Shown piece after piece: positions 243 through 15,313 of a stretch of DNA of 15,882 bases. The position numbers were made by a program, and so were the translations under genes. The notes under the pieces were generated by a model. The model did no database searches and was not told the DNA's origin. It was given only the letters and a program-made list of their open reading frames with translations. The DNA lies in the NCBI GenBank assembly GCA_900552565.1, contig USAK01000037.1, positions 1 through 15,882 of the forward strand, in the 5' to 3' direction. This stretch comes from an uncultured Selenomonas sp. (GTDB lineage Bacteria > Bacillota > Negativicutes > Selenomonadales > Selenomonadaceae). Numbering within the stretch: position 1 is the first letter of the stretch; each line of letters begins with the position of its first letter.

Positions 243-399
243 TAAAAAAAACCGCCACATAAAAATGCAGCGGTCGTGTATGAGTGCGGTCGAAGGGCGC
301 CGGCTCCCATCGCGTTGACTTGTGGTTGGCGTTCAAATCAATGGACATGACTGGAGCCGGCAAGATAAAGCCTAAAGGCTGCCAACCTACCCCCTTCAC
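243..399 (-). ncRNA. Unrecognised structured small RNA with probable pseudoknot
   Basis: Read on the minus strand, a TATAAT box (410-405) is followed about six bases later by the predicted start. The RNA opens with GAAGGG (397-392), which pairs with CCCTTC (297-292) to close the fold. Inside are GGTTGGC (387-381) pairing with GCCAACC (330-324), a small AGCC-ttta-GGCT hairpin (380-369), and GCCGGCTCC (361-353) pairing perfectly with GGAGCCGGC (307-299). The second and last pairings interleave, so they form either a pseudoknot or two alternative structures. The RNA ends in a hairpin plus U-run terminator (274-244). No coding frame accounts for the pattern. I cannot match it to tmRNA, SRP RNA, RNase P RNA, 6S RNA or a common riboswitch, and no gene follows it directly, so a free-standing small RNA is the best reading. 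Confidence 0.65.
244..274 (-). terminator. Intrinsic terminator of the structured small RNA
   Basis: On the minus strand the stem ACCGC/GCGGT (274-270 and 255-251), with inner CAT/ATG pairs, is followed by an uninterrupted run of T (251-244). Confidence 0.75.
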
Positions 400-6479: not shown

Positions 6480-7046
6480 TCAGCCTTCATACACGAAATT
6501 CAGCGACTCGGCCAGACGTTCTTTCAAGGACGGGGCCTTCTGGTCCTTGTCCGACAGGATTACCGGCTCCATTGGCCAGGCAACGCCAATATCGGGGTCA
6601 TCCCAGCGGATGTTGCCGTCGCACTCCGGTGCATAGTAGTTGTCGGCCTTGTACTGGACCTCGACATCGTCCGTCAGCGTGATGAAGCCATGAGCAAAGC
6701 CGCGCGGAATGAAAAGCTGCTTCTTATTCTCTGCCGAAAGCTCTACACCGACCCACTGGCCGAACTGCGGCGAACCCTTGCGGATATCGACGGCCACATC
6801 AAAAATCGTGCCGCGCGTCGCACGCAGGAGTTTTGCCTGGCACATCGGGTTGAGCTGATAGTGAAGACCTCTGAGCGTTCCCTTCGTCGCCGAATACGAC
6901 TGATTGTCCTGCACAAAATCAACCTTGAGTCCGGCAGCTTCCATCTTGCGCTTTGACCAGCTTTCCATGAACCAGCCGCGTTCATCGCCAAAGACCTGCG
7001 GTTCCAGTACGTATACACCCTTGAGCTTTGTTTCCATAACGTTCAC
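6480..7046 (-). CDS. rfbC: dTDP-4-dehydrorhamnose 3,5-epimerase
   Basis: A 188-residue RmlC cupin enzyme. It epimerises C3 and C5 of dTDP-4-keto-6-deoxyglucose, the third step towards dTDP-L-rhamnose. Typical motifs are FGDERGWFMESW (19-30), RGLHYQ with the catalytic His62, GFAHGF, and Tyr132 in VQYKAD, the expected catalytic Tyr. The start is GTG: AAGGGGG lies nine bases before it, whereas the in-frame ATG at 7037 would be 18 bases away. It is the first gene of a short minus-strand unit with rfbA and is driven by a clear promoter. Its product is expected to feed rhamnose-containing surface polysaccharide. Confidence 0.95.
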   Translation of the reverse strand: MNVMETKLKGVYVLEPQVFGDERGWFMESWSKRKMEAAGLKVDFVQDNQSYSATKGTLRGLHYQLNPMCQAKLLRATRGTIFDVAVDIRKGSPQFGQWVGVELSAENKKQLFIPRGFAHGFITLTDDVEVQYKADNYYAPECDGNIRWDDPDIGVAWPMEPVILSDKDQKAPSLKERLAESLNFVYEG

Positions 7047-8956: not shown

Positions 8957-10504
8957 TCAATACTGCCAGCGGGCCGTCGCGGTTGCAAAAACGTCCTTAT
9001 CCTTGCGCTGCGTATAGTCTGCGTGCTCAATTTTCGCAAGGCCGAGGGAACCGTCAATAAAGAAATGGTCCTGCAGCTTGACGCGTCCCGTCAGGGCTGC
9101 TTCATAAACGCTTGGATGGTTCAGCGTGCTGCGGTCGAACTCCGTGCGCATGAAATACGCGCCAATCTGGTTCTCCCCCGGCAGATAATGGTTGACACCG
9201 GCATAATACTTCCTGGCGTTATTGCCCATCGCATCGCCGATGATGTCATCGCTGTATGTCCAGCCATTCTGATATTTCTGGTGGACATACCAGAACGGAT
9301 TCGTCGAGGCATATTCAAGCGTCATGTCCCACGAACCGTCTTTCGTGAGCTGCGGCAGATACGTGCCGAAGCGGTAGCCGCGCTCTGTCGGCTGCAGGCC
9401 GCCGGCGTCCTCGCCGTAAACCTCGCCGTAGAACTGCACGCCCGGCAGGCGCACGCGGAAATCACCGCCCGCGATATCGTTCCAGCGGTCTTCACCGGCA
9501 TCGTCATTATGCCCAGTACCCCAATGACGCCAGTCCGACTTCGAGAGGCCATTGCCGTCGCCGCCGAGCATGGAGACGCGCATGAGACCAAACGTGAAGG
9601 CCTTCGACGGCGTGAAGTCCGCGCGCAGACCGAGGAGACCGGCGTGGTCATAATCCGTATGCCCCGACTTTACACGGTCTTCGCGGTCGCCTTCGAGCTG
9701 GCCATAGAACACATGGTAATTCTGCTTGCCGAGGAAACGGAAGAATCCGCCTACCGGCACATCATCCTCAAGATGCACCTGCACCGCCGTCAGCGGCTTC
9801 ATCGTATGGTCAAGTACGAGTTTGCCAGTTTTTCCCTGACCATAGCTCATGGCTTCACGGCCGGCCGTATACTCAACGATGCCCGTCTTCGTCTTGATGT
9901 AGCCTTCTTCGAATTTGAGCTTGGCATCATCATCGTCATTGAAGCTCAGGCGCGGCGTCACGGAAATGGCCGTCTGATGGCCGATATTGCCCGAGACTTC
10001 TGCTTTAGCCACAGCGTTAAAGCCATCGGCATAGTCATAGCCATTCGTGCCATTGCCAAACGGCTGCCAATGGGCGTTTGGCTGGCCATCGCCGCGTTTC
10101 TGGCTCTGCTTGTACGAGGATTGGTCGCTGTCGTAGCTCGCGAGCTGCACTGAAGCCTGACGCAGCGCCAGGTCATCCTGCTTGCGCTGTCCCTGGAGCG
10201 TCTCTACTTCTGCCGCAAAGGACTCGCGCAGAGTTGCAAGCTCTTCGGCCAGATATCTTGGCATCGGCTTGACTTTGGCCTTCTCCTCAGCCTGCAGCAC
10301 CCACTTTGCCATCTGCAGGCGGCTGTACGGGCGCGCGCCATCCGGCAGGTCATCGATATAGCCCATGCCGCTGAGCTTATCCACATAATCATAATAAACA
10401 CTGCCCATAGGTACATCGGCCGTAACCGCCTGAGCACCAGCCATCCCCGGCATTACAGCAGAGGCAGTTGCTGCCATCATGCCGACAAATAATGATTTTT
10501 TCAT
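8957..10504 (-). CDS. Wzi-like outer-membrane beta-barrel protein (capsule assembly family)
   Basis: A 515-residue exported protein. It begins with a signal peptide (MKKSLFVGMMAATASAVMPGMAGAQA, cleavage near 26) and ends in ATARWQY, whose terminal aromatic residue is typical of outer-membrane barrels. The segment after the signal peptide (VPMGSVYYDYVDKLSGMGYIDDLPDGARPYSRLQMAK) matches the start of Wzi-family proteins and also faintly resembles an SLH domain. A coiled-coil-prone stretch (about 80-115) links it to a barrel with family-like phrases (TGKLVLDHTMKPLTAVQVHLED; NPFWYVHQKYQNGWTYSDDIIGDAMG). Wzi proteins help attach capsule to the outer surface. The alternative is an SLH-linked porin, the usual major outer-membrane protein of Negativicutes. 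GAGGG lies about eight bases before the ATG. It follows a small membrane-protein gene by 37 bases. Confidence 0.75.
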   Translation of the reverse strand: MKKSLFVGMMAATASAVMPGMAGAQAVTADVPMGSVYYDYVDKLSGMGYIDDLPDGARPYSRLQMAKWVLQAEEKAKVKPMPRYLAEELATLRESFAAEVETLQGQRKQDDLALRQASVQLASYDSDQSSYKQSQKRGDGQPNAHWQPFGNGTNGYDYADGFNAVAKAEVSGNIGHQTAISVTPRLSFNDDDDAKLKFEEGYIKTKTGIVEYTAGREAMSYGQGKTGKLVLDHTMKPLTAVQVHLEDDVPVGGFFRFLGKQNYHVFYGQLEGDREDRVKSGHTDYDHAGLLGLRADFTPSKAFTFGLMRVSMLGGDGNGLSKSDWRHWGTGHNDDAGEDRWNDIAGGDFRVRLPGVQFYGEVYGEDAGGLQPTERGYRFGTYLPQLTKDGSWDMTLEYASTNPFWYVHQKYQNGWTYSDDIIGDAMGNNARKYYAGVNHYLPGENQIGAYFMRTEFDRSTLNHPSVYEAALTGRVKLQDHFFIDGSLGLAKIEHADYTQRKDKDVFATATARWQY

Positions 10505-10991: not shown

Positions 10992-12773
10992 ATGGAACAT
11001 TTTATCCGTGACAATTTACGCATCCGCACGTTTGCCGCGGTCATGCTGCTGAACTTTCTCGTGATCTTGGTCATCTCCATCTTTTTTCAGCAGCGTTCGC
11101 TTTCCTTCTTTGAACAGGAATATGCCGATGCCGTCTATGAACAGGCCCAGGCCAATGGCGCGCTTGTGGACAGCGGCTGGCAGTCCCTCTACCAGACCAC
11201 AGCGGATGCGGCGTTTGATTCGGCGCTGCGCGAAAAGCTCGCCGCGCCGGACAGCCAGTTACCGGATGCAGCCAAAGAAATTGCCGCCATCCTGCGTGCC
11301 TATAAGAACCGCAATGCCCAGATTGACCGCATCAGCCTCTACGAGCCTGCCACGGGCCGCCTGATAAGGTCGGATGAATACCATTCTGTCATGATGCTCC
11401 ATCCCGATGGCGACGGCAAAGCCTGGCTGGATACCATCAGCCAGCAGCAGGGACGCAGTCCCTTCCTCGGCGAAGACTTAATTGGCGCCTCACCGCAGAA
11501 AGTCTATCTCTATCATCAGCCTGTATATGATAAGGACGGTCGGCTGCTCGCCTATCTGACAACATCGTGCAGTGAGTGCAGACTCTATTATGCCTATCTC
11601 ACCCCCATCATCCAGAAAAAAGAAAGTGCCGTTCTCCTCTATCATACTGACGGCACTCTGCTGAGCGGCAGCCTCGATGATGAAGAGGCTGGCCCCGTTC
11701 AGGCCATTCTCCGCGATAAGATTGCCCAAAATCCCGACGGGCAGACTTCGCTTCATCTGCATAATCAGGATTACTTCGCCGTCTGGCTTTCCCTGCCCTT
11801 TTCGGGGGACGTTTTCTGCCTGATCAAATCCCAGCATGACTTCCATGCGCAAATCATACAGATGCAGGTGCTCTGTGTCCTCTCCGCGCTGGTTCTGCTG
11901 CTCTTATCGGCCGTCTTCCTCTATTGGATTTCCCTGCGTCTGGCACGTCCGGCTGAGGAACTGGCTGAGGCCATGCACGAGGCAGGGCGCGGCAATCTTA
12001 CGGTACGCGCACCAGTGACCGGTCATGACGAAATTTCTTATCTGGCCCTTTCCTTCAATGAAATGCTGCAGAAGATGCATGACCTCATTGAACGCCTGGC
12101 CAGTGAAAAAGAACAGAAAAAAGAAGCCGAGCTCAAGGCCCTGCAGTATCAGATTCGCCCGCATTTCATCTATAATATGCTCAATGCCATCCGCTTTGCC
12201 GCCATCATGCAGGGAGCGCGCAATCTCGGCAAGCTGCTGTCCGACTTTGTCGAACTCCTGCGTGCCAGCACAAACCGCAATGGCGTTTTTGTCCCGCTTT
12301 CTGAAGAAATCGGCACCCTGCGCCACTACATCGCCCTGCAGGAATTCCGGCTGATGGATGCATTTACCGTAGATTTTTCTATTGCCGACGAGACTCTCAC
12401 CTGCATCGTGCCGCGCATGCTCCTGCAGCCGCTTGTCGAAAACAGTATTCTGCATGGGCCTTCGGCCAGCCAATCCTGCTGTCATATAGAAATCTCTGCC
12501 CATCTCACCAAAGACCGTCTTCACCTGATTGTAAAAGACGATGGACAGGGCATGACGCCAGAGCAAATTGACCAATTGGAGCATGGCACGGCTGCAGGCA
12601 AAAGACCTGCCCACGGCGGTCTTTCCGGCATTGGCGTCCGCAACATCATTGAGAGACTTCATCTATATTATGGAGAAAAGGCCCGCCTGCATTATGAAAG
12701 TGACGGACAGTCCTTCACCAAAGCAGAGATCACGCTGCCAATTTCTCACGATGTCCATGAATACGAAATTTAA
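10992..12773 (+). CDS. YesM/LytS-type sensor histidine kinase
   Basis: A 593-residue inner-membrane kinase. Membrane segments lie at about 12-31 and 287-315, enclosing an extracytoplasmic sensor of about 255 residues. A HAMP domain (about 310-365) and a short coiled coil follow, then the His_kinase motif LQYQIRPHFIYNMLNAIRF with phosphoacceptor His391. The ATPase domain shows LLQPLVENSILHG (Asn484), VKDDGQGM (Asp517) and GIGVRNIIERLHLYYG. It should phosphorylate the regulator encoded two genes downstream. The intervening gene encodes a sugar-binding protein, suggesting that ligand reaches the kinase through it. The ribosome binding site is weak (AAGAAG about ten bases upstream). It is first in a three-gene operon controlled by an upstream terminator. 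Confidence 0.93.
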   Translation: MEHFIRDNLRIRTFAAVMLLNFLVILVISIFFQQRSLSFFEQEYADAVYEQAQANGALVDSGWQSLYQTTADAAFDSALREKLAAPDSQLPDAAKEIAAILRAYKNRNAQIDRISLYEPATGRLIRSDEYHSVMMLHPDGDGKAWLDTISQQQGRSPFLGEDLIGASPQKVYLYHQPVYDKDGRLLAYLTTSCSECRLYYAYLTPIIQKKESAVLLYHTDGTLLSGSLDDEEAGPVQAILRDKIAQNPDGQTSLHLHNQDYFAVWLSLPFSGDVFCLIKSQHDFHAQIIQMQVLCVLSALVLLLLSAVFLYWISLRLARPAEELAEAMHEAGRGNLTVRAPVTGHDEISYLALSFNEMLQKMHDLIERLASEKEQKKEAELKALQYQIRPHFIYNMLNAIRFAAIMQGARNLGKLLSDFVELLRASTNRNGVFVPLSEEIGTLRHYIALQEFRLMDAFTVDFSIADETLTCIVPRMLLQPLVENSILHGPSASQSCCHIEISAHLTKDRLHLIVKDDGQGMTPEQIDQLEHGTAAGKRPAHGGLSGIGVRNIIERLHLYYGEKARLHYESDGQSFTKAEITLPISHDVHEYEI

Positions 12774-12812
12774 AGTCTGCAGATATAGAAATTATAGAAA
12801 GGAAGTATGCCC

Positions 12813-13751
12813 ATGCGCCTCATGATGATGGTCTTTGCCGCGCTGCTCACGGGTATTTTCATCGTGCTGCTGCCCATGCAGAATCAGGAAAATTCTATCG
12901 CACGGCCTGCCTATACCGTCGGCGTTGTCCTCAAGGCCATGGACAGCGAGCATTGGCTGGCCGTCCGTTCCAGCATGCAGGAAGCCGCGCAGGAGAAAAA
13001 TATCCGTCTGATTGTCATGACGCCGGAAAACGAATTGGCCTATGATGAACAGAACCAGATTATCGAAGACCTGTTCGCCGGCGGCATCGACGCCCTGATT
13101 GTCTCGCCGGTCAACATTCACCATACGGACCAATGGGTGCAGGAAGCCAAAGAACGCGGACTGCCGCTGCTGACGATTGATGAAAAGATTGACGGCATCC
13201 CCTATGTCGGGTCCGATAATTATGCCATTGGCCAGACTGCTGCCAAAGAAATGGCCGCCCGACTGCCGGAAGGTGCCTCTGTAGGCATCATCGCGGGCAG
13301 CGCCAATCAGGATGCCCACATCCAGCGCGTTGCCGGCTTCCGCGACTATCTGTCGGCTTCTCACAGCCTGCAGCTTGTCGACGTCGAAGCCGATGAAACC
13401 AAATACCGGCAGGCCACCATTGAGACTGAGCAGATGCTCAAAACACATCCAGACCTGCAGGGGCTGTTTGTCACCAGTGCCATGATGACCTTAGGTGCCA
13501 TAGACGCGACGGAGATGCATACGCCGGCCATCCACATCATCGGTGTAGACACACAGAATGATACACTCGCCGCCCTGAAGCGCGGACGTATCGATGCCAT
13601 GATTTCGCAGGATGGGCATGAGACGGGCCAGCTGGCCATCAATGTCATCATGGACCTGCTGTCCGGCACGGCCGTTGAAGAAAATAATTTCATCGAGAAT
13701 GATGTCATCACGCAGGATAAAGCCGATGAATATCAAATCAAGGAAGAATGA
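12813..13751 (+). CDS. Periplasmic sugar-binding protein (RbsB/LacI-like fold), probable co-sensor
   Basis: A 312-residue protein of the type I periplasmic binding family (Peripla_BP_4). An N-terminal hydrophobic segment (RLMMMVFAALLTGIFIVLLP) exports or anchors it; no lipobox Cys is present. The two-lobe pattern begins with YTVGVVLKAMDSEHWLAVRSSMQEAAQ and shows the hallmarks IDALIVSPVN, LPLLTIDEKIDGIPYVGSDNYAIGQTAA, VGIIAGSANQDAHIQRVAGFRDYL, IIGVDTQNDTLAALKRGRIDAMISQD. The chosen ATG has AAAGGAAG seven bases upstream; the ATG at 12807 is too close. No ABC permease or ATPase gene is adjacent. The gene lies between a kinase and its regulator, which parallels the XylFII-LytS xylose sensor of Clostridium. 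Ligand unknown; ribose-like sugars or inositol are candidates. Confidence 0.88.
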   Translation: MRLMMMVFAALLTGIFIVLLPMQNQENSIARPAYTVGVVLKAMDSEHWLAVRSSMQEAAQEKNIRLIVMTPENELAYDEQNQIIEDLFAGGIDALIVSPVNIHHTDQWVQEAKERGLPLLTIDEKIDGIPYVGSDNYAIGQTAAKEMAARLPEGASVGIIAGSANQDAHIQRVAGFRDYLSASHSLQLVDVEADETKYRQATIETEQMLKTHPDLQGLFVTSAMMTLGAIDATEMHTPAIHIIGVDTQNDTLAALKRGRIDAMISQDGHETGQLAINVIMDLLSGTAVEENNFIENDVITQDKADEYQIKEE

Positions 13752-13792
13752 CAGAACAAATCACAGCAGCGATTCTCTAGGGAGGCTTCATT

Positions 13793-15313
13793 TTGTATAA
13801 AGTAATCATTGCGGACGATGATTTCTTAGTCCGAACGTATTTAAAACAGATGATTCCGTGGCAGAAAAATGGCTTTGTCATTGCCGGCGATGCCAAAAAC
13901 GGTCAGGAAGCACTGGACCTCATCGAAAAGGAGCATCTTGCTCTCATCATCACAGATGTCTGCATGCCTGTCCTCGACGGCATCGGCCTCATCCGCGCCA
14001 TGCGCGCCCGCCAGCTCGCCGGCCATATCCTTGTGCTGAGCAGCCACGATGACTTTGCCTATGTTCACGAAGCCATGAAGCTCGGCATCGATGATTATCT
14101 CTTAAAAGACGATTTGACCCCAGAAAATATGCTGGCCTTCCTCAAAGAGCATCTGCAGGACGCAGACAAAGAAAACACACCTGAACATACGGCCCATCCT
14201 GCATCGGTTTCACAGGCAGAGCTCGCCCGCATCGGTCAGGAAAAACTGCTTCATGATTTTTTCCATGGCTTCAGCAGTCAGGGAGCCTTTGCTCCAGAGG
14301 AAGCCGGCGAAAAGGCCCAGAGAGCGGGCCTGCCTGCTTCGTTCCGTTTAGCAGCTGCCAGTCTCATGATGCCGCGCGGCTGGCAAAAGAGACGGCAGGC
14401 CCTCAGTGAGGAAGAACGCGGTTCCTTTCGTCAGGCCTTTCAGGAAATGTGCCAGACGTTTTTTACGCATCATCGGGACGATTTTCAGGGACAGCCTTTT
14501 CTGCTCGAAGACAGGACCGGCTGCTGGGGATTCCTGTTTCTCTTTCCCAAAGACATCCGCCGTGCCGCCGTACTGCAGAAGCTGCAGGATGCGTCTGCCC
14601 ATTTGCAGACACTCATCCGACGTTATTTTGACCTCTGCCCCCTGATGGTACGGACTGCACCGCAGTCCGACTGGGCACGTCTGCTGACCGCCTGGCAGTC
14701 GCTCCTTGCCAAAAAAGATGTTCTCTTCTATTTCACAGAGGGAAATTTCACCGCAGAAGAGCTGCCTCCCGTTACGTCCGCCGTAAATCTCCCGCCTGAC
14801 CTGCCGGCGGAAAAGCTGCTTGCAGAGCTCGGCAGGGAATACCTGACCAGAAAAGCCCTGCAGGACTTCCTCAAACGCCGCTTTCCTCAGCTTACCGACA
14901 AAATCTGGACGAATTTATGGCAGTCGGAAGATTATGCGGGCCTGCAGCAGAATTTATTGCAGGTACTTGCCAATGAGCGGGCAGAAAGTCAGCTTCATCC
15001 CGCCATCCGTCAGGCCCTGCGCTTTATCGAGGAACATTACCGTGAAAACCTCATGCAGGCGGACGTTGCCGCTGCCGTTCATCTGAATCCAGCTTACTTT
15101 TCTACCTTATTCAAGAAAAACATGAACAAGGGCTTCAGCGAATATCTCGCGGAACGGCGAATCAAGGCCGTGCAGCAGCGTCTGACCAGCAGCACGGAAC
15201 GCATCAAGGAGATCGCTTCCGCCGAAGGCTTTGATGATTATCCTTACTTCTGCCGCCTCTTTAAACGGCTCGTCGGCCTGACGCCGCAGGAGTACCGCAC
15301 GCAGAAGATGTAA
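13793..15313 (+). CDS. YesN-type response regulator, AraC-family DNA-binding domain
   Basis: A 506-residue regulator. The receiver domain (1-120) shows the acidic cluster DDD (8-10), the phosphoacceptor Asp55 in LIITDVCMPVLDG and the lysine in YLLKDD. A central region of about 280 residues is less conserved. The C-terminal AraC domain (about 405-506) has two helix-turn-helices: LMQADVAAAVHLNPAYFSTLFKK and IKEIASAEGFDDYPYFCRLFKRLVGLTPQEYR. It starts with TTG: AGGGAGG lies exactly seven bases before it. It is the third gene of the kinase/binding-protein/regulator operon and ends at a terminator. It is predicted to activate genes such as the downstream dehydrogenase. Confidence 0.95.
   Translation: MYKVIIADDDFLVRTYLKQMIPWQKNGFVIAGDAKNGQEALDLIEKEHLALIITDVCMPVLDGIGLIRAMRARQLAGHILVLSSHDDFAYVHEAMKLGIDDYLLKDDLTPENMLAFLKEHLQDADKENTPEHTAHPASVSQAELARIGQEKLLHDFFHGFSSQGAFAPEEAGEKAQRAGLPASFRLAAASLMMPRGWQKRRQALSEEERGSFRQAFQEMCQTFFTHHRDDFQGQPFLLEDRTGCWGFLFLFPKDIRRAAVLQKLQDASAHLQTLIRRYFDLCPLMVRTAPQSDWARLLTAWQSLLAKKDVLFYFTEGNFTAEELPPVTSAVNLPPDLPAEKLLAELGREYLTRKALQDFLKRRFPQLTDKIWTNLWQSEDYAGLQQNLLQVLANERAESQLHPAIRQALRFIEEHYRENLMQADVAAAVHLNPAYFSTLFKKNMNKGFSEYLAERRIKAVQQRLTSSTERIKEIASAEGFDDYPYFCRLFKRLVGLTPQEYRTQKM

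Follow-up and report, generated by a model that had tools for sequence, protein, structure and literature searches.

The 15,882-nt stretch of DNA analysed here (the window) comes from a Mitsuokella-like bacterium, and the predicted RNA gene lies on it in a short stretch between genes. The predicted small RNA is about 155 nt long and occupies positions 244 to 399 of the minus strand, its 5′ end being placed from the -10 box TATAAT at 405-410. A weak -35 sequence, TTTCCT (428-433; read by eye and a poor match to TTGACA), lies 17 nt before the -10 box, and the gene ends in an intrinsic terminator found by the terminator scan (hairpin 250-275, T-run 249-244). The upstream neighbour, also on the minus strand, is a gene for a 3′-5′ exonuclease (PF00929; 502-1254), which is likewise the neighbour in loci L001-L006 described below. 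This gene is adjoined by one for a GH84-type beta-N-acetylglucosaminidase (PF07555 with NagJ_C; 1434-2942), and frames judged by eye to be similar to the latter are found nearby in L001 and L003. Farther along the window, the frame at 8957-10504 has a signal-peptide-like start and an S-layer-like N terminus (by eye) and matches the Pfam family Wzi capsule assembly (PF14052), and a histidine kinase, a periplasmic sugar-binding protein and an AraC-type response regulator, likely a sugar-sensing set, are encoded consecutively at 10992-15313. Positions 1-50, with a hairpin containing ...CCTCCACCTCTTAGGTGGGGGATGAA... on the minus strand, read like what we take to be a transposon end of the IS200/IS605 kind.

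An earlier note on this DNA had proposed a compact pseudoknotted small RNA framed by a TATAAT box and a U-run terminator, leaving the strand unstated. Both signals are present (410-405 and 275-244), and all features concerned (the pairings, the hairpin, the TATAAT box and the U-run terminator) belong to the minus strand, where they run from about 399 to about 244. Folding programs, which do not score the pseudoknot, gave the minus-strand transcript 402-241, terminator included, a z score of -4.16 (0 of 200 shuffles folded as well), and plus-strand positions 280-399 a z score of -1.43 (16 of 200). The window's promoter is missing from the list of the promoter scanner because its -35 sequence is weak. 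The terminator scan of positions 1-1500 returned four sites, that of the RNA among them, against 1.7 expected. Judged by sequence, the RNA has a promoter and an intrinsic terminator of its own, and we infer that the gene is transcribed.

From 5′ to 3′ on the minus strand, the predicted fold consists of P1, P2, the pseudoknot strand, P3, P2′, P4, P5, an 11-nt loop, P5′, P4′ and P1′, followed by the terminator. P1 pairs GAAGG (393-397) with CCUUC (292-296); the earlier note had made this a 6-bp helix, which is present as such in the window (GAAGGG 292-297 with CCCTTC 392-397), only 5 bp of it being common to the relatives aligned below. In P2, GGGUA (388-392; AGAUA in L004-L006) pairs with UAUCU (363-367). 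The 5′ strand of the pseudoknot, GGUUGGC, follows at 381-387; it is found in 10 of 14 loci (as GGUUGGU in L006) and absent from four. P3 is the hairpin AGCC-UUUA-GGC-U at 369-380, already noticed before, whose loop is GAAA in L001-L005 and GCAA in L006. P4 is formed by GCCGGCUCC (353-361) and GGAGCCGGC (299-307), with an inner extension of GUC (349-351) and GAU (309-311). Finally, P5 pairs GAUUUG (334-339) with CAAGUC (317-322) and closes the 11-nt loop AACGCCAACCA (323-333), in which GCCAACC (324-330) provides the 3′ strand of the pseudoknot. As had been claimed, the 9-bp pairing 299-307/353-361 and the 7-bp pairing 324-330/381-387 are perfect and interleaved. Helices P2 and P5 had been missed, as had the fact that the pseudoknot joins a hairpin loop (GCCAACC) to a strand in the other arm. 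The suggestion that the interleaved helices might constitute a two-state switch was not borne out, since P2, P3, P4 and P5 can coexist with the pseudoknot in Mitsuokella.

Relatives were collected in several ways. A query with the exonuclease gave 15 loci, in six of which the RNA directly follows that gene; no RNA was seen downstream of the gene in L007-L009, and the same query found nothing in viral contigs. The six carriers are Mitsuokella multacida, M. jalaludinii, a Selenomonadaceae MAG, Mitsuokella oral taxon 131 and two uncultured Mitsuokella, and their RNAs (L001-L006) are 74-94% identical. A sequence search matched seven of nine genomes at E ≤ 1, six of them strongly (E 2e-49 to 1e-14) and the seventh at 0.14. 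Covariance model R1, built from seven sequences including these six homologues, found 13 of 189 Selenomonadaceae genomes at E ≤ 1, the six homologues being recovered, and 9 of 380 genomes of the class at E ≤ 0.1. A pattern search hit 21 of the 189 genomes; ten of these carry the RNA, and six of the other 11 were read and rejected. Weak R1 matches (E 0.0017 to 0.84) together with the pattern revealed a short form of the RNA in G151, G160, G162 and G165, which belong to a single genus. The hairpin-only model R2 (nine rows, without arm 1) matched 20 of 189 genomes at E ≤ 0.3 and added G159, G152 and G144 (E 1.7e-5, 4.9e-5 and 1.7e-4), whose loci L173-L175 are independent of its training. With model R3 (12 rows), 13 of the 189 genomes had matches at E < 1e-12, followed by one at 5.3e-4, and 21 of them reached E ≤ 0.1; in the second genus, 7 of 22 genomes were clear and 14 of 22 reached E ≤ 1. 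Models R1-R3 recover their own training rows by construction, and since the models and the pattern are biased towards an unchanged loop, the searches may have passed over relatives in which it has changed. Candidates L176, L177, L178, L180, L182, L186, L193, L208, L209 and L213, all weak matches, and L036 were dropped because the full loop motif is incomplete; the weak match L041 was inspected and dropped as well. The virus collection yielded 32 pattern matches, none with R1 at E ≤ 1, plasmids gave no match, and a single 35-nt match in phages (E 0.08) was ignored. In total we obtained 14 loci including the window, six after the exonuclease gene and seven beside pflB, the latter in 7 of the 22 genomes of the second genus, where the RNA is rearranged or shortened.

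The cores of these loci, 106-108 nt long, are 74-100% identical to each other (79/107 to 107/107), M. multacida and M. jalaludinii having identical cores over 107 nt. Identity in the 60-nt flanks is 41-71% upstream, in a comparison that leaves out the L001 rows, and mostly 39-70% over aligned columns downstream; the downstream exceptions, L001/L002 (39/42) and L005/L006 (50/60), are close pairs whose terminators are also common to both. Between the RNA core and the terminator of L004 lies a sequence, GAUAGGGGUUCAAUUCCUAUC (6921-6941), similar to the T-arm of a tRNA; no tRNA was detected at these positions by ARAGORN.

For the long forms we used A3, an alignment of seven sequences with six distinct rows. 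The fold is paired in 232 of its 234 cells, and 6 of its 39 pairs have changed on both sides; neither figure was reached by any of 500 shuffles, and slid controls gave 0-2 such pairs. In P4, which has 12 pairs in A3, three show both-sided changes and every cell is paired. P3 has one pair changed on both sides and 95.8% of its cells paired, and in P2 two of five pairs vary on one side only, every cell being paired. All five P1 pairs are invariant in A3, and because of this the helix is supported by conservation alone, its evidence being the A3 rows rather than the second genus. When hairpin P4-P5 was compared across both genera, 8 of 15 pairs had changed on both sides (0 of 500 shuffles; slid controls 0-4), as had 7 of 13 in alignment A5 (1 of 500; slid controls 1-4). 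Within A5, both-sided changes affect five of the six P5 pairs, 90.3% of the cells being paired. L002 and L060 were left out of A4 and A5 because they duplicate the hairpins of L001 and L037. Related sequences can beat shuffles of this kind, according to a warning of the tool, and slid controls keep the relatedness; one of five covariation measures, that of further pair types, did not rise above the shuffles (326, 315 and 443 of 500). Read on the plus strand, A3 is paired in 217 of 234 cells because 17 cells hold G-U pairs, and two mismatched cells gain; the better pairing of the minus strand points to it as the RNA.

Together, these comparisons, which carry the decisive weight, show that a predicted RNA gene has been conserved in both fold and sequence, and that its predicted arms P2-P3 and P4-P5 meet at a junction closed by P1. 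They support what had been proposed, namely a small RNA of compact, pseudoknotted build that has a promoter and a terminator to itself, and the paired segments, whose lack of conservation had been named as one outcome that would speak against it, are conserved with compensatory changes. The 9-bp helix shows the compensatory changes that had been called for, whereas the 7-bp pairing offers only a single change from C-G to U-G. The plus-strand fold, unremarkable by itself, would suit chance pairings in an intergenic stretch, a reading whose probability the conservation and compensatory changes among the homologues reduce to a negligible level. In the second genus, the lowest fold of arm 1 in L173 and L174 is a GGGAYA/UGUCCC helix, and in L174 and L175 GAUA/UAUC, as in Mitsuokella, is another possibility.

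The signals that frame the RNA recur among the relatives. In 12 of the 14 loci a -10 sequence with five or six of six matches occupies the same place, and L060 and L173 have four of six; for L003, L060 and L173 the site was placed by eye, the script having picked another. Terminators are found at the matching place in all 14 loci, with sequences that differ between lineages. Ten of them were found by a strict script, for which 31 of 400 shuffled versions of the same stretches also count as terminators, and the remaining four by a looser one (0 of 80 shuffles). The next gene is convergent in L005, L034, L173 and L174, and in L001-L003 it is of the LysR type and apparently has its own promoter (both by eye). 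With its own -10 box and terminator and with convergent next genes, the predicted RNA therefore looks like a stand-alone transcription unit rather than the leader of the next gene. That it precedes no gene, as had been stated, agrees with the convergent next genes of these relatives; in the window itself only 240 bases on the minus strand separate it from the edge.

The arrangement also bears on whether the RNA is a ligand-sensing element or attenuator that uses termination as its read-out, in the manner of a riboswitch leader. Purine-type riboswitches have a three-way junction closed by P1 whose two arms are joined by loop pairing. The P1-closed junction with loop-joined arms is common to them and the RNA described here, so that the fold resembles some aptamers in outline, and a terminator does lie downstream. 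In contrast to purine-type riboswitches, however, the RNA is followed in several loci by no gene that it could regulate and has no Rfam match, and its 7-bp pairing connects a loop with a strand that lies within the other arm. A cis leader of the next gene is rejected at the four loci where that gene is convergent, and in L001-L003 the apparent promoter of the LysR-type gene argues in the same direction. We consider a riboswitch-like function improbable.

Two further explanations fare worse. A compact pseudoknotted fold with invariant unpaired bases might belong to a small catalytic RNA, self-cleaving or similar, and HDV-like ribozymes do have a similar size and a pseudoknotted fold. Their strand order is different, however, no Rfam ribozyme model matches, and the predicted RNA begins at P1, leaving little 5′ of this helix to be cleaved; catalysis is very improbable. 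The loop could alternatively be part of a short coding gene, as it reads TTG AAC GCC AAC CAC in Mitsuokella, giving an NANH-like peptide in these rows. Against this, the loci share no start (the Mitsuokella TTG position is CCG in L034, L173 and L174), the loss of one base puts L035 and L037 out of frame, and the third positions of GCC-AAC-CAC are invariant. Coding is thus unlikely for the predicted RNA, and we give this explanation hardly any credence.

The loop GCCAACCAC is identical in all 14 loci, a figure to be read in the light of the models and patterns, which favour it. The seven pseudoknot pairs are invariant apart from L006, where one C-G pair has become U-G, and none changes on both sides, so that covariation neither proves nor refutes the pseudoknot. 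In its favour, L173-L175, found with a model lacking arm 1, carry UGGUUGGC at the matching place, the arm being otherwise rewritten; a 7-bp pairing between an 11-nt loop and a helix-flanked strand would also be sterically ordinary for loop pairing. Against it, the lowest fold of L174 that ignores pseudoknots pairs GGUUG locally with CGAUC. The pseudoknot, in which the 11-nt loop of arm 2 would form 7 bp with the strand of arm 1 and the arms would lie side by side, is in our opinion supported but not proven.

The four short forms beside pflB are without GGUUGGC and keep the loop GCCAACCAC unchanged. No GGUUGGC was found on the strand of the RNA within the surrounding 7.5 kb in G151, G160 and G162; in G165, within 4.3 kb, there is a single copy 2.1 kb away. 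Conservation of the loop without its internal partner implies another partner, and the loop probably has one outside the RNA.

In all seven RNA-carrying genomes of the second genus the distance between the loop and the start of the divergent pflB gene is 243-264 nt. Among the 22 genomes, these seven and no others have a PflB with 94-100% identity to the query; the remainder comprise 13 with a PflB of 60-80% identity and two with none at E 1e-100. In one genome, G146 (PflB 80%), neither GGTTGGC nor GCCAACC occurs on the scanned strand of the stretch examined, and no RNA was seen upstream of pflB. Of the other carriers, G001-G003 encode PflB (77-80%) at places away from the RNA gene, and in G004-G006 the RNA comes with no PflB match at E 1e-20. 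A functional tie to pflB was therefore rejected, and we read the link as one of clade and synteny.

The reading that we tentatively favour is that of an independently transcribed, non-coding RNA of about 155 nt that may act in trans, with the invariant loop as its contact and the pseudoknot holding or masking that loop. Through the loop GCCAACCAC the RNA would touch a partner outside itself, in all likelihood another RNA with the complementary sequence GGUUGGC(G). The internal GGUUGGC strand would copy this partner and hold or mask the loop, to be displaced in the end by the true target. The outside partner, the masking and base pairing as the mode of action are inferred, and a protein partner, which would explain the same facts as an RNA partner, is nearly as likely. 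Counting against the contact reading, a strong pairing of 7 bp would keep the loop of the long form occupied. That same pairing is central to another version, in which the RNA masks itself: a strand mimicking the target would hold the loop until a target, ligand or protein opens it, and one lineage beside pflB would have lost the mask and be constitutively open. We regard this version as rather unlikely.

A target search with TGGTTGGCGT in nine genomes returned 41 10-mer matches, nine of which are the RNA genes themselves; the 32 non-self matches compare with 34 for a reversed-pattern control. Among the 23 of these 32 that were read, no start-region site recurs in a second genome. All 23 fall within an open frame, on either strand, that is 148 codons long or longer, which is weak evidence because the DNA is G+C-rich. 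An ATG precedes the match in L134 (G001) by 31 nt and that in L135 (G003) by 58 nt, the latter match lying in a frame open on both strands. L133/L155 and L136/L142 each apparently represent the same gene in two genomes, with sites far inside the open frames. A different kind of site is found on the minus strand of L144 (1489-1527; G003), where the loop of a hairpin contains GUGGUUGGCGUUCA, a perfect 14-nt complement of the loop of the RNA. It lies in the 3′-UTR of an MFS-type gene, between this and an mgsA-like gene (both by eye), and is followed by a terminator-like hairpin. About 0.02 such complements are expected per genome, and more over nine, so that we take it as a lead only. The window contains no other complement of the loop longer than 9 nt.

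The outcome of this search also bears on the idea of a structured RNA (a scaffold, a sponge or the core of an RNP) in which a protein recognises the conserved loop and the fold, in place of base pairing with another RNA. In favour of such a role, paired and unpaired positions are alike highly conserved, the two-arm fold is compact, and the search gave no convincing mRNA target. The position of the gene, however, suggests no candidate protein: neighbours differ by genus (exonuclease or pflB), and PflB itself has no match in G004-G006, as mentioned above. This role is possible, if somewhat doubtful.

Rfam 15 has no match to the window at the gathering threshold, in agreement with the earlier view that the RNA matches no recognised family. 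Over positions 1-600, at E values up to 10, it gave six sub-threshold matches, for example Hrs13 with 15.6 of 52 bits. Applied to L173, L174, L001, L003 and L005, it found only a tRNA elsewhere in L005, and for L034-L037 and L041 sub-threshold matches only. In the literature, mostly open-access main texts, we found no description of this RNA and little on small RNAs for Selenomonadaceae. 6S RNA has a similar size and is likewise a stand-alone gene; compared with 6S, HDV-like and other small structured RNAs, the strand order is different and no covariance model matches. Several structured RNA candidates come from the same bacterial class (Selenomonadales, Veillonella or Negativicutes). In the portions of their descriptions available, the gltD, ldh2 and ilvD motifs lie mostly or always upstream of genes, and about 60% of SLH motifs precede S-layer-homology genes, the rest preceding genes of unknown function (PMC8632094, PMC6429828). 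It is by these descriptions that they are set apart from the RNA reported here, which stands alone. A likeness is also offered by loop-acting sRNAs of Firmicutes such as RsaA of Staphylococcus aureus, whose C-rich motif masks Shine-Dalgarno sequences; as far as the portion of its description available goes, RsaA too is small and non-coding, has unpaired stretches that are conserved (one of them in a hairpin loop) and makes a loop-loop contact comparable to the loop here (PMC3961350). This is a likeness by description, with no sequence relation claimed, and in contrast to RsaA the complement of the loop is found inside the RNA itself. To our knowledge, GCCAACC is not an anti-Shine-Dalgarno sequence, unlike the RsaA motif.

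By these comparisons, the predicted RNA is a new family of narrow known distribution within the stand-alone bacterial small RNAs, among which its internal pairing of a loop to an arm is unusual. It adds an uncatalogued RNA family, supported by covariation, to the Selenomonadaceae. In addition, among the natural loci at the same position next to pflB some have the pseudoknot strand and others lack it, and all keep the loop; this amounts to a ready-made comparison of the mutagenesis type, which makes the question of the binding partner of the loop directly testable.
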